NCBI GenBank assembly: GCA_026626905.1 | Contig: JAPNUX010000004.1 | Location: forward strand, 1 to 64,000 | Source: Desulfurococcus sp. | GTDB taxonomy: Archaea; Thermoproteota; Thermoprotei_A; Sulfolobales; Desulfurococcaceae | Direction of reading: 5' to 3' | Length of the DNA stretch: 64,000 nucleotides | Shown here: positions 36,248 to 54,493 of the stretch, piece after piece | Layout of the letters: every line of letters begins with the position of its first letter | Numbering within the stretch: the first letter of the stretch is position 1 | Translations under genes and position numbers: made by a program | The notes under the pieces: generated by a model | What the model saw: only the letters and a program-made list of their open reading frames with translations | What the model was told of the DNA's origin: nothing | The model's database searches: none

Positions 36248-36751
36248 CTAAACTAGACTCCTCCTAACACTCTTACACAAGCCTACACCAAGATATACTA
36301 CTCCACCCACCCCTTCAATGAAGAGGCATGTAGGAGATGATGGATCATGGGTTACACCCATACTCCTCAACACCTCGGCAACTCTAGCAAAGAGAATCCT
36401 GCTTAATCCTCTCACACCCCTCATTCTAATCTTAATCTTCACTCTACCCGGGTATACTAGATTCCTGAGGATTACACCTGGATCCCTGAGGAAATCCTCG
36501 AGGCTAGCACTCCCGTGCACTGGGATAATGTTCTCTACGAAACCATACTCACTGCTAATAGCCCTCCTGTAAACCCTCTCAACACTAAGACAGCTGCGGA
36601 CGAAGAGAACACCGGGGAATCCAGCCTCCTCTACAACAACATTACTATCTAGAGCGTAGAGTACATCACCAATCTCCCGAATACACCACTCAACACTACC
36701 AACCCTGCACGTAGCAATCAGCACAATACTACAAGCCATAAGCCAGCTCAA
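36248..36751 (-). CDS. THUMP domain protein (Tan1/THUMPD1-like)
   Basis: A 167-residue protein. It opens IATCRVGSVEWCIREIGDVLYALDSNVVVEEAGFPGVLFVRS, cited for its ATCRxGsvEwxIrEIGDvL and pGVlfV elements, which begin stand-alone THUMP proteins. The THUMP core continues with IIPVHGSASLEDF and VKIKIRMRGVRGLSR. Homologues bind tRNA and assist Nat10/TmcA-type cytidine acetylation. It lies directly upstream of cdc6 on the same strand. Confidence 0.8.
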   Translation of the reverse strand: MSWLMACSIVLIATCRVGSVEWCIREIGDVLYALDSNVVVEEAGFPGVLFVRSCLSVERVYRRAISSEYGFVENIIPVHGSASLEDFLRDPGVILRNLVYPGRVKIKIRMRGVRGLSRILFARVAEVLRSMGVTHDPSSPTCLFIEGVGGVVYLGVGLCKSVRRSLV

Positions 36752-37577: not shown

Positions 37578-37670
37578 CTTTCAGTCTTTTTTATTGCTTC
37601 GGGTTATCTATGAATGTATCAAGGAGTGTATTCCACGCATTCTCATATTTCAGTCTTTTCTGATCGCTTC
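37578..37670 (-). CRISPR. CRISPR-like mini-unit: two repeats, one 46-nt spacer
   Basis: Read on the minus strand, a 24-base repeat (37670-37647) starting GAAGCGATCA and ending AAAAGACTGAAAT is followed by a 46-base unique stretch (37646-37601). A second repeat (37600-37578) then starts GAAGCAATAA and ends AAAAGACTGAAAG. The form (GA- start, -GAAAG end, 24-25 nt, spacer above 40 nt) is that of crenarchaeal CRISPR repeats. The two copies differ at several positions, so this is a degenerate unit, not an active array. Four related single copies occur elsewhere in the window. No cas gene is present. Confidence 0.45.
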
Positions 37671-37692
37671 TAGACGTTGATTCTCACTGTAA

Positions 37693-37714
37693 GAGTCTAT
37701 AAGCTTTTCGGCTA
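37693..37714 (-). promoter_or_regulatory. Leader/promoter shared with the 48.6-kb repeat
   Basis: The 22-base minus-strand sequence containing CCGAAAAGCTTATAGACTC lies 22 bases before the first repeat of the mini-unit. It matches 48648-48669 at 20 of 22 positions, including a TATA-like core. A promoter reading into the repeats is the simplest interpretation. Confidence 0.5.
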
Positions 37715-37822
37715 AGCTTCCCGCGAGCCGGTGAGATGCTAACTACGACTCTATGAAAAGTCAAGCATTCAGAATGCCATGAGAAAACCGGGGGTCAGTT
37801 TAAAATAAGCGGAACTAATAGT

Positions 37823-39952: not shown

Positions 39953-40000
39953 TCTAATACTAGTCTAAGAGATGTCGTGCTTTAAAATATTACTTCATTG

Positions 40001-40024
40001 TCTTAGTTTTGCTTGTTTTGAACT
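40001..40024 (+). repeat. 24-nt direct repeat, copy 1
   Basis: Identical over 24 bases to 48507-48530 and in the same orientation (it begins tcttagttttgcttg and ends ttttgaact). Copy 1 lies between the 5' end of tRNA-Gly and the start of the secreted-protein gene. Confidence 0.9.
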
Positions 40025-43435: not shown

Positions 43436-43459
43436 CTTTTCAGTCTTTTCTAATGCATC
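43436..43459 (-). repeat. Dispersed CRISPR-like repeat, solitary copy
   Basis: Minus strand: starts GATGCATTAG and ends AAAAGACTGAAAAG, a variant of the 24-nt element. It lies in the 3' flank of the cassette 1 ATPase gene. Confidence 0.5.
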
Positions 43460-43514
43460 CCCGTAAGGAATTACAGTTAACAGGCTTCACGATTTCTTCA
43501 GGCTCAAAGCATAA

Positions 43515-43526
43515 AGCTTATAAACC
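43515..43526 (+). promoter_or_regulatory. TATA box of the DUF438/PAS gene
   Basis: agcttataaacc lies about 35 bases upstream of the GTG start at 43560. A typical crenarchaeal box A for the DUF438-HTH operon. Confidence 0.5.
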
Positions 43527-43559
43527 CATGTACTCTTAGTTTGGTACGGGTGTTGACGC

Positions 43560-48275: not shown

Positions 48276-48512
48276 ATGCTTATGCTTGATAGTAACGCTT
48301 TCGGTGTATGGAGTTTTATTGCTAAGAGGGCTTTCAAAGCTGTCTTCGAGAGGGCTTCAAGCGAGGAGGCCGCTGAGTCTATCAGCAGAAGCTTAAGAGA
48401 GCGTGAAGTAGCCTTATACATCCACATACCCTTCTGTACTGGCACATGTCTTTTCTGCCCGTATGTCAGGTACCCTATAGCTAGGAGTGAAGTAGAGAGG
48501 GTTCTATCTTAG
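48276..48512 (+). pseudogene. Truncated radical SAM (HemN/HemW-like) gene
   Basis: A 78-codon frame ends VALYIHIPFCTGTCLFCPYVRYPIARSEVERVLS. The CxxxCxxC cluster and YIHIPFC lead are those of coproporphyrinogen oxidase-like radical SAM enzymes, which are normally 380-450 residues. The gene stops at the 24-nt direct repeat, whose TAG (48510-48512) supplies the stop. A TATA-like ggcttataagt lies about 40 bases upstream of ATG 48276. The remainder of the gene is not in the window. Confidence 0.75.
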
Positions 48513-48530
48513 TTTTGCTTGTTTTGAACT
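48507..48530 (+). repeat. 24-nt direct repeat, copy 2
   Basis: Perfect match to 40001-40024, same orientation. It forms the junction at which the radical SAM gene is cut. Confidence 0.9.
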
Positions 48531-48647: not shown

Positions 48648-48708
48648 TAGCCGAAAAACTTATAAACTCATCTTCAATGAGTAGAAGCAATCAAGAAAAG
48701 ACTGAAAG
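48648..48708 (+). CRISPR. Leader plus single CRISPR-like repeat
   Basis: On the plus strand the leader at 48648-48669 (containing CCGAAAAACTTATAAACTC) matches the 37.7-kb leader at 20 of 22 bases. Fourteen bases later comes a 25-base repeat (48684-48708) starting GAAGCAATCAA and ending AAAAGACTGAAAG. No second repeat follows, so this is a single-repeat unit. Antisense to it, the repeat encodes the last residues of the restriction-modification protein. Confidence 0.45.
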
Positions 48709-51700
48709 GAAAGGACACTAGGTCTAGTGATTTTTCTAGTGCTTCTCTACTATTATGCTTCTCCACGTACTCGTCGAGTATTCTAACAATCTCCTTGAAC
48801 TCAGAGTATTTATCGTATATGTGCTTTAATGCACTGGCTTGATTTGAGTATCCTCTAGCTTCTATCCTCCGGCTTAACTCTCTACTCAACTCTGCAATTC
48901 TCATTCTTGTATCCTTATTCACGCTACTCCAGCTTAAGCCGCTTAAAGCTACTGCTAGAAGAGGCCTTGCGAACTGAGTGCGTATGAAGCTTCTTCCCTC
49001 GGTGATAGCTTTGTATGCTAGGTAGTTGAGTACAGCTGCATAGTAGTATGCTTTATCTTCCTCCCTGCACTCTATGGATGCTACAGTAGAGTGTAGAACG
49101 AGATTCCTGCTGGCTGGCTTGACTACAAGTGACGTGAATACTCTACTAGCTCTGTATACAACGTAGTATGATTCAGGCTTCATTAACTCTAGTCTGCCTG
49201 GGTGAGCTATCTCCTCGAGGAGTCTTCTTATCTTCTCTTCATCCTCAAGCTTAATGCTATGCTTATTGTACTCTAAAGCATGATGCAGGAATTCTCTGAG
49301 TGGTTGAAGCCCGCCTTCAGAGAGTAGTACTGGTAGTGTTCTAGCTAGTTTAAACGGGTTTACCTCACTCATGTAGATAAGCTCGTAGACGCCTACCCTG
49401 TAGTTCTCCAGCCAGAATCTAGGTACACGCAGCTTTGATGTTGTCCCGTAGAGCTTGAACTCGAAGCCGCCTCCCGCGTACCTGTGCTCGCTGAGAACTA
49501 GGCCAGCGTAGGATCTACCCTTCCTGGCTTCTTTAAGCTCTCCTCCGAGAAGCCCTCTAATATACAAGCCCATTGGGATAACTTTCTCCACGCTGAGCGC
49601 TCTTGCAAGCTCCCCGCTACTCGTAGTAAAGTATAACAGGGGGGTTGACACGTAATCCTCGTATCTTATATTAAGCTTCTGGATTTCAAGTATATCTGGT
49701 TTTAGAGTTAGACTCTTAGTATAATTCTCTCTGTACCTGCTTGAGAGCCTGACTACGAGGAGCTCAGGCTCCTTCTTCAAACCTTTTTTAGCTATGACTA
49801 GCGCGGGATATATACCGTGCTGGAAGGCATCGTAGTCTACATCCACGAGCTTTAACTCGCCGTTAAAATCCTTTAGAACCGCGTATGCTGCTAGTATGCC
49901 GGCTCGCATTGAAGCCTTATGGTAGAATACCTGCTCTCTATTCATTACAAAGCCTACTCCTTCATCCACTGTGTTAACAGCCATCGCGAGAGCTACAGTA
50001 GCTACATCTGAGCCGTTGAGTATAGAAGTAATATTTTTCTTCTCGAGCTTCAAGCGCTTCTCTAATAGCTCCCCGAGGTATCTTCTAAGCTCTACCGCGT
50101 AAGAAGCTTTAAACTCTGTTAGCTTTATCCAGGGAGGATTAGTTAATATCAAGTCAACCCTGAGGTTTAGTAGGGCTAGCGGCACATACACTGAGGCTAT
50201 TACTAAACCCCATTCACCACTCTCCTTGTACTTAGCGATGAGTTCTGCAAGCCTTAAGGCTAGAGGAGGCTTTAACTCTCTAGCATGCCTGAGAAAGCTA
50301 TCCATTATAAGCCTGCTCAACTCTAAGGTGTTCTTCGAGTACTCACTAATATATTCTACTAGCTCTCGATCTATTACTTCTGCAAGATAGCTTCTAGCCT
50401 CGCTTTCACTCCACGCTAGACACTGGTTTCGAGTACACGAGTCGTAAGCTCTATAGAGAGCTAGTGTTAAAGCCTTCTCAATCCAGCTGAACGCTTCTAG
50501 GAGAGCTCTACTAGCTCCTTTAAGCCTTGGCGCTAAGTTAAAGTTTACTAGGATAGCAAGGTACTTCCAGGCGCTATCGAATAACGACTCTACCTCTGGA
50601 ACCCACATGCCTGGAGCTGGCGGCGTTGGAAGCTCTCTACGCTTAGCGAAGCTTAAGAAGACGTCTGCATGGTATACTCGGGGAGGCTGGTCAGGCGTCC
50701 TGCCTGCTACTCTCGAGTACGCTATTATAAGCTCGGCTCTAGCTATAGATACTGCTAGCGGGTTTACATCAAAGCCTACTAGGCTCTTATATGCTTCCTC
50801 CGGGCTCTCACCCTCCATGATCTTCTTGTAGAAGGCTTTCACAAGGAATGTTCCAGATCCGCAGAAGGGGTCTAAGACTAGTTTACCCTTCAAGTTGAAC
50901 TCGTTTAACATGTACTCGACTATCCATAGCGGTGTATAGTACTCGCCTATCTTCCTGCGTACCTCAGGCTCAACTAGAAGCTCGTAGAGGGATCTAAAGA
51001 CGTCTTCAACCTCCCCTATACTACTATGCTCCCAGTCTATGAGGCTAGCTTTAAAGACTATGCCTGCAGCTACCTCTCCAAGCTTCTCCCGTAGCCTGGG
51101 GGGCATTGACTCATCACTGTATACCACCCTCCACCAGTTAAGGTATGGTAGTGCTACATCCACGCCTAGCAGGATGCCACTACAGACATCTACAGGATCC
51201 CCCTTTACTCCAAGAGTCTTTGAGAGGCTAGCGTGGACTATCATATGCATTAGTGTATGCTTAATAAACATGTCTTCAAGAAACTCCTCTGAGGCTCTAC
51301 CGTAAAGCACCTCTAGGATTTTCCTGTAGGCTTCATAAAGGGGTTTAACCGCGGGATTCTCTCTTACATTCTCGAAGACTTCCTTCAAGGTGCTTACAGC
51401 CTCATCTATATTCCTAGTAAAGAACCTGCCTACAACTTCAGGTCTAGCTGGAAGCTTAACTCCCCCTAGAATACTAGGTAGAATCTGTGTTCTCAGAATC
51501 TCTACCGCGCTCGCTAATTCTACGTCTTTAGCAATAGATTTCAGCTCAAGCGCGCTATCCCTGCGTTCAACCCTATAAATCCTCCATAAATCGTAGTTAG
51601 TGATGACAACGTACTCCACGGTTACTGTCTCAGGGCATTGAAGATACTCCTCGAGAAGCTTGTAGTAAGCTTCATCAAATTCACCTGGCTGAGACTTAAT

Positions 51701-51940
51701 TTCCACGATTAGCTTGCCGTGGAATACCATGTCAACAATCTTCCTACCTCTACACACGTAAACCTCGAATTGCACCATTCCGCGGAGGAGTTCTTTAAGA
51801 GTGTTCCCAGCGAGATTAGCAAGAGGTGTGTGAGTGATTTTAACGATATCACTGGCAAGGTATACGAGGAGGTCTTGCAGGATCCTCCTTACCTCCTCAT
51901 GCTTACGCTCTCTCATAAGACTCATTGAAGTACACCGCAA
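48674..51940 (-). CDS. Type IIG restriction-modification enzyme (fused nuclease and N6-adenine methyltransferase)
   Basis: A 1088-residue protein. The N-terminal domain carries a PD-(D/E)xK site: Asp70 (IVDMVF) and Glu80-x-Lys82 (LIVEIKS). The methyltransferase core has motif I VLDPFCGSGTFLVKAFY, FDVNPLAVSIARAEL and motif IV LTNPPW. The C-terminal ~400 residues would be the target-recognition domain. Nuclease, methylase and specificity in one chain is the type IIG arrangement. Predicted role: defence by cutting unmodified DNA. The last residues (PFSLFLIAS..) are encoded by a dispersed repeat in antisense, so the original C-terminus may be altered. Alternative starts are Met6 and Met9. Confidence 0.88.
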   Translation of the reverse strand: MRCTSMSLMRERKHEEVRRILQDLLVYLASDIVKITHTPLANLAGNTLKELLRGMVQFEVYVCRGRKIVDMVFHGKLIVEIKSQPGEFDEAYYKLLEEYLQCPETVTVEYVVITNYDLWRIYRVERRDSALELKSIAKDVELASAVEILRTQILPSILGGVKLPARPEVVGRFFTRNIDEAVSTLKEVFENVRENPAVKPLYEAYRKILEVLYGRASEEFLEDMFIKHTLMHMIVHASLSKTLGVKGDPVDVCSGILLGVDVALPYLNWWRVVYSDESMPPRLREKLGEVAAGIVFKASLIDWEHSSIGEVEDVFRSLYELLVEPEVRRKIGEYYTPLWIVEYMLNEFNLKGKLVLDPFCGSGTFLVKAFYKKIMEGESPEEAYKSLVGFDVNPLAVSIARAELIIAYSRVAGRTPDQPPRVYHADVFLSFAKRRELPTPPAPGMWVPEVESLFDSAWKYLAILVNFNLAPRLKGASRALLEAFSWIEKALTLALYRAYDSCTRNQCLAWSESEARSYLAEVIDRELVEYISEYSKNTLELSRLIMDSFLRHARELKPPLALRLAELIAKYKESGEWGLVIASVYVPLALLNLRVDLILTNPPWIKLTEFKASYAVELRRYLGELLEKRLKLEKKNITSILNGSDVATVALAMAVNTVDEGVGFVMNREQVFYHKASMRAGILAAYAVLKDFNGELKLVDVDYDAFQHGIYPALVIAKKGLKKEPELLVVRLSSRYRENYTKSLTLKPDILEIQKLNIRYEDYVSTPLLYFTTSSGELARALSVEKVIPMGLYIRGLLGGELKEARKGRSYAGLVLSEHRYAGGGFEFKLYGTTSKLRVPRFWLENYRVGVYELIYMSEVNPFKLARTLPVLLSEGGLQPLREFLHHALEYNKHSIKLEDEEKIRRLLEEIAHPGRLELMKPESYYVVYRASRVFTSLVVKPASRNLVLHSTVASIECREEDKAYYYAAVLNYLAYKAITEGRSFIRTQFARPLLAVALSGLSWSSVNKDTRMRIAELSRELSRRIEARGYSNQASALKHIYDKYSEFKEIVRILDEYVEKHNSREALEKSLDLVSFPFSLFLIASTH

Positions 51941-52936: not shown

Positions 52937-52959
52937 CTTTCAGTCTTTTTGACTGCTTC
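52937..52959 (-). repeat. Dispersed CRISPR-like repeat, solitary copy
   Basis: Minus strand: starts GAAGCAGTCA and ends AAAAGACTGAAAG. It lies between the DUF996 relic and the GH12 gene with no leader match and no partner repeat. Confidence 0.5.
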
Positions 52960-53977: not shown

Positions 53978-54137
53978 AATTATTGTAATTATTATTATGA
54001 TTTTTTTCTCATTTTCATTCCCAATAATACTCGTAAAATTGAAGGGTTTTTATATCTTTAATCTTAGAGCCTGGGAAACCCGTGAAGCTTATTGAAGGAT
54101 CAACCATTAAATAGAATTCTCTACTGCTGTGATTCCT

Positions 54138-54493
54138 TTACGAAGAAGTATTAGAAAAGACTGAAAGTGCTGGAATAATTCTGCCTCTCTTACTATACTC
54201 TTCTAGGTTCTCTCTGCCTACTATGTGGAGTTCTACTGGAGCGTAGAGTGGCAGGCCCTGCTGCTCAGCTTTCTCCATGATTTTTTCTCTGAGTTCAACT
54301 GCCTGCTGAAAGGATGGCTTCGAGGGGATCACTACTAGTATGTCTACATCACTCATAACAGTTAGCCTGTTTTCTGCGCACCTCCTACTACGTAGACTTC
54401 GGCTTCAGGTATAGTAGCTTTTACAGCTTCATATATTATTCTAGCATACCTCCTCCACTCCATTGGTATGCGTAGCGGGGTAATCCTAGTCAT
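54138..54493 (-). pseudogene. MNT nucleotidyltransferase, pair 3, frameshifted
   Basis: ATG 54493 opens MTRITPLRIPMEWRRYARIIYEAVKA...EVYVVGGAQ, then a one-base shift near 54380. The other frame continues ENRLTVMSDVDILVVIPSKPSF with the Asp-x-Asp of the nucleotidyltransferase. The natural order is VVGGA-ENRLTVMSDVDIL, so the break falls exactly between the Gly-rich loop and the catalytic Asp pair. Alternatively, 54356-54138 could be a functional short version. The C-terminus (PALSVFSNTSS) is encoded within a dispersed repeat. Confidence 0.7.
54145..54167 (+). repeat. Dispersed CRISPR-like repeat at the MNT gene 3' end
   Basis: Plus strand: starts GAAGTATTAG and ends AAAAGACTGAAAG, overlapping the last codons of the minus-strand MNT gene. 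Confidence 0.5.

Follow-up and report, generated by a model that had tools for sequence, protein, structure and literature searches.

A probable orphan CRISPR relic and its dispersed leader-repeat relatives in a Desulfurococcus chromosome without detected cas genes

The repeat-spacer-repeat unit

The window analysed here is a stretch of 64,000 nt from the genome of Desulfurococcus sp. (contig JAPNUX010000004.1). About 3.1 kb of it, between the gene at 36251-36751 and a tRNA-Gly, hold a pilin gene, a mini-CRISPR unit and a transglutaminase-like gene. This segment is absent from the sister species (G002), in which the counterpart of gene 36251-36751 is followed at once by tRNA-Gly. The core of the unit, at positions 37670-37578 of the minus strand, consists of a 24-nt repeat, a 46-nt spacer and a 23-nt repeat, and the whole comprises the following parts:

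37670-37647, minus strand: CRISPR repeat R1, copy 1, GAAGCGATCAGAAAAGACTGAAAT; 24 nt, three mismatches to the family consensus, final G missing
37646-37601, minus strand: spacer-like unique sequence, 46 nt
37600-37578, minus strand: R1 copy 2, degenerate, GAAGCAATAAAAAAGACTGAAAG; 23 nt, one base lost
37671-37797, minus strand: CRISPR leader; its repeat-proximal part resembles copies on contigs C1 and C6
37696-37703, minus strand: TATA box CTTATAGA, 25 nt upstream of R1
37798-37821, plus strand: degenerate second repeat R2, GTTTAAAATAAGCGGAACTAATAG; at the distal side of the leader and pointing away from it, five mismatches to GTTCAAAACAAGCAAAACTAAGAG

An earlier note on this DNA had described a 22-base TATA-containing leader followed by a 24-base repeat, a 46-base unique sequence and a degenerate second repeat. 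The last three are all present on the minus strand. The TATA block (TAGCCGAAAAGCTTATAGACTC, 37714-37693) is present too, but it is only the middle part of the leader and does not abut the repeat: the 22 bases between them (37692-37671) are leader sequence as well, and the leader extends out to about 37797. The copies elsewhere in the genome and the degenerate R2 across the leader (37798-37821) are features beyond that description.

A chance repeat is ruled out by two controls. Shuffles of the window give 0.00 expected occurrences of the 24-mer with up to three mismatches, and the genome holds 10 matches to GAAAAGACTGAAA at up to one mismatch but none to the reversed pattern used as control. 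A comparison with known RNA families gave nothing above chance level. The unit holds a single spacer, whose 46 nt compare with about 37-52 nt in the arrays of relatives. A search of this spacer against viruses and plasmids, as the earlier note had proposed, yielded no target: no protospacer was found in phages, plasmids or viral contigs, the last being compared by exact 19-mers only.

In outline, two degenerate repeats flanking a spacer next to a promoter resemble a CreTA module as defined in PMC8501985, that is, a CRISPR-regulated toxin-antitoxin pair whose antitoxin guide is the degenerate repeat-spacer-repeat. This identity is hardly credible here. In the flanks, seed matches extend to 7 nt at most, a length that 35% of shuffled spacers also attain; the seed pattern 1-5/7-11 has no occurrence within 35-40 kb other than the spacer itself; and no Cascade gene was found with the Cas7/DevR model, the only one applied to this question. 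For the tested flanks the reading was rejected, the spacer seed (nt 1-5, 7-11) being without nearby complementarity. A conserved mini-peptide, MKLIEGSTIK, readable in the C1, C6 and 54-kb leader copies, was also considered as a CreT-like toxin and dropped, as its DNA is part of the common leader.

Repeat, leader and cas genes in related genomes

The consensus of R1, GAAGCAATCAAAAAAGACTGAAAG, has mismatch-free copies in the window genome (G000) at C1 and C6. In G028, which belongs to another genus of the same family, the exact 24-mer also forms arrays with over 40 repeats in all. A variant two mismatches away, GAAGCAATAAGAAAAGACTGAAAG, builds arrays in G040, G060 and G027, and GAAGCAATCAAGAAGAATTGAAAG forms arrays in G021, near its cas1 gene. 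Arrays in G028 and G040 are directly adjoined by cas6, with csa3 beside it in G040. The comparison with relatives thus identifies the repeat of the window genome as a CRISPR repeat, exact in G028 and near in G027, G040 and G060. The earlier note had named one outcome that would point elsewhere, for example to a terminator family: many copies lacking spacer-like spacing, of an element unrelated to the genome's real CRISPR repeats. Several copies do exist, mostly without spacer-like spacing, but since relatives' arrays carry the repeat, it is CRISPR-derived rather than an unrelated terminator family.

The leader leads to the same relatives. Over the 60 nt nearest the repeat, leader and repeat together are 87-88% identical to the C1 and C6 loci (E about 1e-14 to 1e-12), and the leader matches G027 with a BLASTN E of 1.5e-5. 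Immediately upstream of the repeat, C1, C6 and the array leader of G027 share CAACGACTA without any difference, and the window unit departs from it by one base. The TATA box stands 24 or 25 nt from the first repeat in the window unit, in C1 and C6, and in the array leaders of G027, G028 and G040, a distance reached in 3% of shuffled leaders. Judged by this end sequence and TATA spacing, which are common to relatives' array leaders, the element is a CRISPR leader. A promoter is predicted from the TATA box, and a short RNA may still be started from it; the TATA region is nearly palindromic (AAGCTTATAAA), and transcription in both directions would therefore be possible. G027 carries four leader copies, attached to a seven-repeat array, a short degenerate array, a single repeat and a broken repeat, respectively, so leader-repeat pieces have been shed beyond the window genome too.

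The genome of the window (1.27 Mb, 99.92% complete, 8 contigs) was searched for cas genes. Cas1, RAMP proteins and Cas7/DevR were not detected, nor was Cas6 with two profile models and a relative's protein as query; the same or parallel searches were positive in some relatives and controls, although the Pfam Cas6 and Cas7 models did not match every crenarchaeal control. An assembly break inside an array is ruled out, as no contig end carries repeats or arrays. The Cas7/DevR and RAMP tests say little for this system, because G028 and G040, with arrays and Cas6, lack such matches, and the weight of the absence rests on the Cas1 and Cas6 tests. That the genome is without cas genes is well supported, short of proof, as a gap in the 8-contig assembly could hide them. 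The earlier note's suggestion that Cas6 encoded at another genomic site could process the RNA finds no support, since no Cas6 was found.

Two side observations concern relatives. In G028 (L051, L052) and G040 (L053), long arrays and an adjacent cas6 come without a Cas7/DevR or RAMP match, and in G040 without a Cas1 match either; the effector of these systems would be either unrecognised or absent from the assembly. G001, of the same genus as the window genome, has no Cas1 and a Cas6-like stretch with stop codons (L106, G001 C1:1041248-1041886), possibly a CRISPR loss in progress.

A more active alternative is a leader-repeat RNA that is still live, with Cas proteins supplied by genes missing from the assembly. 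The TATA spacing is intact, the C1 and C6 repeats are unmutated and the assembly is in 8 contigs, all of which would suit such an RNA. With a completeness of 99.92%, four protein families absent, contig ends free of repeats, a base lost in the second repeat and the last G lost in the first, it is nevertheless very unlikely.

A dispersed family of leaders and repeats

At least nine leader copies, in two related forms, are found in the genome over five contigs' worth of loci: two at C1, one each at C6, C2 and C3, and in the window near 37.7, 43.5, 48.6 and 54.1 kb. Further R1 copies lie at C1, at C6 (two repeats 18 nt apart), at C2 and at 48.7 kb, and five of the R1 locations lie at most 17 kb from the variable stretch that holds the window unit. 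Besides the unit itself, the repeats of the family include:

40000-40023, minus strand: solitary R2
43437-43459, minus strand: degenerate R1 at the distal side of a leader copy, the leader being matched at 43484-43527
48506-48529, minus strand: R2 at the distal side of the leader copy near 48.6 kb; it contains the end of a HemN-like fragment
48684-48708, plus strand: solitary R1 after a leader copy; a type IIG restriction-methylation gene (48674-51940, minus strand) extends through it with its 3' end
52937-52959, minus strand: solitary R1, 23 nt, no leader recognised
54145-54167, plus strand: degenerate R1 at the distal side of a leader copy, the leader being matched at 54043-54114
L043:5910-5988 and L121:6357-6441: R2 elsewhere, singly or paired at the far side of leader copies

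The least expected part is the two-sided arrangement of repeats. The 48.6-kb, second C1 and C3 leader copies carry R2 (GTTCAAAACAAGCAAAACTAAGAG, 24 nt) on the side opposite the position of R1 and facing outward; at C1 and C3 the R2 copies are paired, with unique stretches of about 33 and 39 nt between them, and resemble small arrays. The degenerate R2 of the window (37798-37821) shares 19 of 24 bases with the R2 consensus, and in a shuffle test none of 5000 shuffles scored as well. At the 43- and 54-kb copies an R1-like repeat occupies the R2 position. Treating R1 and R2 as one diverged repeat is unsupported, as 21% of shuffles match their local alignment score. A two-faced leader, in which a short promoter region with outward repeats of two kinds (R1 and R2) would have been copied across the chromosome as a unit of roughly 200-250 bp, is put forward tentatively as one possible description. 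If true, fragments made of CRISPR leader and repeats would constitute a scattered and possibly mobile repeat family, one that outlasts the cas genes and remodels the ends of genes.

Several genes end at these repeats. The type IIG restriction-methylation gene (48674), a nucleotidyltransferase fragment (54138) and an aspartic-protease-like gene on C1 end inside them; a HemN-like radical SAM fragment of 78 aa (48276-48512, plus strand), the rest of which is not seen nearby, terminates within R2; and at C2 another large methyltransferase gene reaches its end at the opening bases of R1. The pattern agrees with rearrangement involving the units or with their insertion close to the ends of genes. 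A further reading is co-option as transcription terminators or gene-end elements: the opposite strand (CTTTCAGTCTTTTTTGATTGC) is a T-run that could end convergent transcripts, and at six of eight separate R1 locations the T-rich strand lies inside, or at most 61 nt past, the 3' end of a gene on the same strand. This pattern was spotted post hoc, however, and the six include degenerate repeats. At C6 the pair sits directly upstream of a phosphoesterase gene instead, and the window pair is 196-265 nt away from the nearest such gene end. Such a role is quite unlikely, and the CRISPR origin of the repeat leaves termination at best secondary.

Two copies tell something of how the family spread. A leader-repeat segment of 188 bp is 95% identical between L043:4822-5007 and L044:5096-5282 (on C1 and C6, respectively). 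On C6 it directly adjoins the 3' end of a tRNA-Lys, and about 20 nt of the same tRNA end accompany it on C1, which argues that at least this pair arose by duplication. These tRNA contacts would also suit a decayed mini-CRISPR of an integrated virus or plasmid, which would have come on mobile DNA and used host Cas proteins against rival elements, as in the portogloboviruses of Sulfolobales. The window unit lies inside the roughly 3.1 kb missing from G002, between the orc1/cdc6-side gene and tRNA-Gly, and the mini-arrays of viruses likewise combine a leader with one or two spacers and lack cas genes (PMC6858448). The neighbouring genes, however, encode a type IV pilin, Orc1/Cdc6 and a transglutaminase-like protein, with no integrase or virus gene recognised among them, and neither repeat nor leader occurs in any virus, phage or plasmid record searched; an origin of this kind is unlikely.

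Origin of the unit and comparison with known systems

The repeat and leader are those of relatives' CRISPR arrays, the cas genes searched for went undetected and the copies are dispersed; this much is established. The window unit is an orphan, because no Cas1, Cas6, Cas7 or RAMP gene was detected and no array lies at the contig ends. Its most probable identity is an orphan CRISPR relic, that is, a TATA-bearing leader with one repeat-spacer-repeat which has lost its cas genes and the remaining array and belongs to a scattered leader-repeat family. Of the two origins proposed in the earlier note, the decayed mini-array holds, in that repeat, leader end and TATA spacing match relatives' arrays and no cas gene is detected; the ancestral one is unsupported.

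An ancestor would have possessed a CRISPR system with the R1 repeat, possibly of subtype I-A, as suggested by csa3 at a relative's cognate Cas6 locus, and would then have lost its cas genes. Recombination between repeats may have reduced the arrays to one or no spacer, and leader-repeat pieces may have been duplicated to other sites or carried along in rearrangements of variable regions. A transcript from the promoter would, without Cas6 or an effector, have no known partner, and nothing CRISPR-like would be expected of it. Some findings speak against a relic. The C1 and C6 repeats are unmutated relative to a relative of another genus and so more conserved than long decay predicts, and a scatter of nine leader copies flanked by repeats on both sides calls for more than decay. 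If the cas loss was recent, the lineage would be a natural experiment on the death of CRISPR immunity; if the units spread by themselves or are kept for their promoters, CRISPR debris would be a raw material for new regulatory or mobile elements.

The closest known structures are the arrays of G028, G040, G060, G027 and G021, from the same family or order, which resemble the window unit in repeat (exactly so in G028), leader end (G027), TATA distance, spacer length range and orientation. They have 7 to 40-plus repeats, with cas6 beside them in G028 and G040, whereas the window unit has one spacer and no cas genes. Among archaeal genomes, that of Methanocaldococcus jannaschii holds many dispersed LR-SR elements, each made of a leader (the long repeat) and short repeats; that genome has cas genes and most of its units have several spacers, and the likeness to the window family is one of description, not of sequence.

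Orphan arrays, virus mini-arrays and solitary repeats are already known (PMC6858448, PMC8616872). The virus-borne mini-arrays of SPV1 and SPV2 have a leader with promoter, one or two spacers and no nearby cas genes (PMC6858448), and the window unit shares the promoter-bearing leader, the few spacers and the lack of cas neighbours; unlike them, it is chromosomal, in a genome without detected cas genes, with no viral genes recognised and a spacer without known target. CreTA modules (PMC8501985, PMC9458426) are likewise degenerate repeat-spacer-repeats outside arrays, but the window unit lacks nearby seed complementarity and its genome lacks detected Cascade genes. Searches of the literature on shared or divergent leaders and on ectopic repeats found no description of such two-sided cas-less units, and at least nine dispersed leader-repeat units in a genome without detected cas genes are undescribed in the literature searched. 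Solitary or stand-alone CRISPR repeats (PMC6858448, PMC8616872) are, as here, single repeats outside arrays; those reported in archaeal viruses are without leaders, whereas most copies in the window genome have one, and the presence in one chromosome of several leader-bearing units that lack cas genes and have repeats on either side appears to be a new arrangement.
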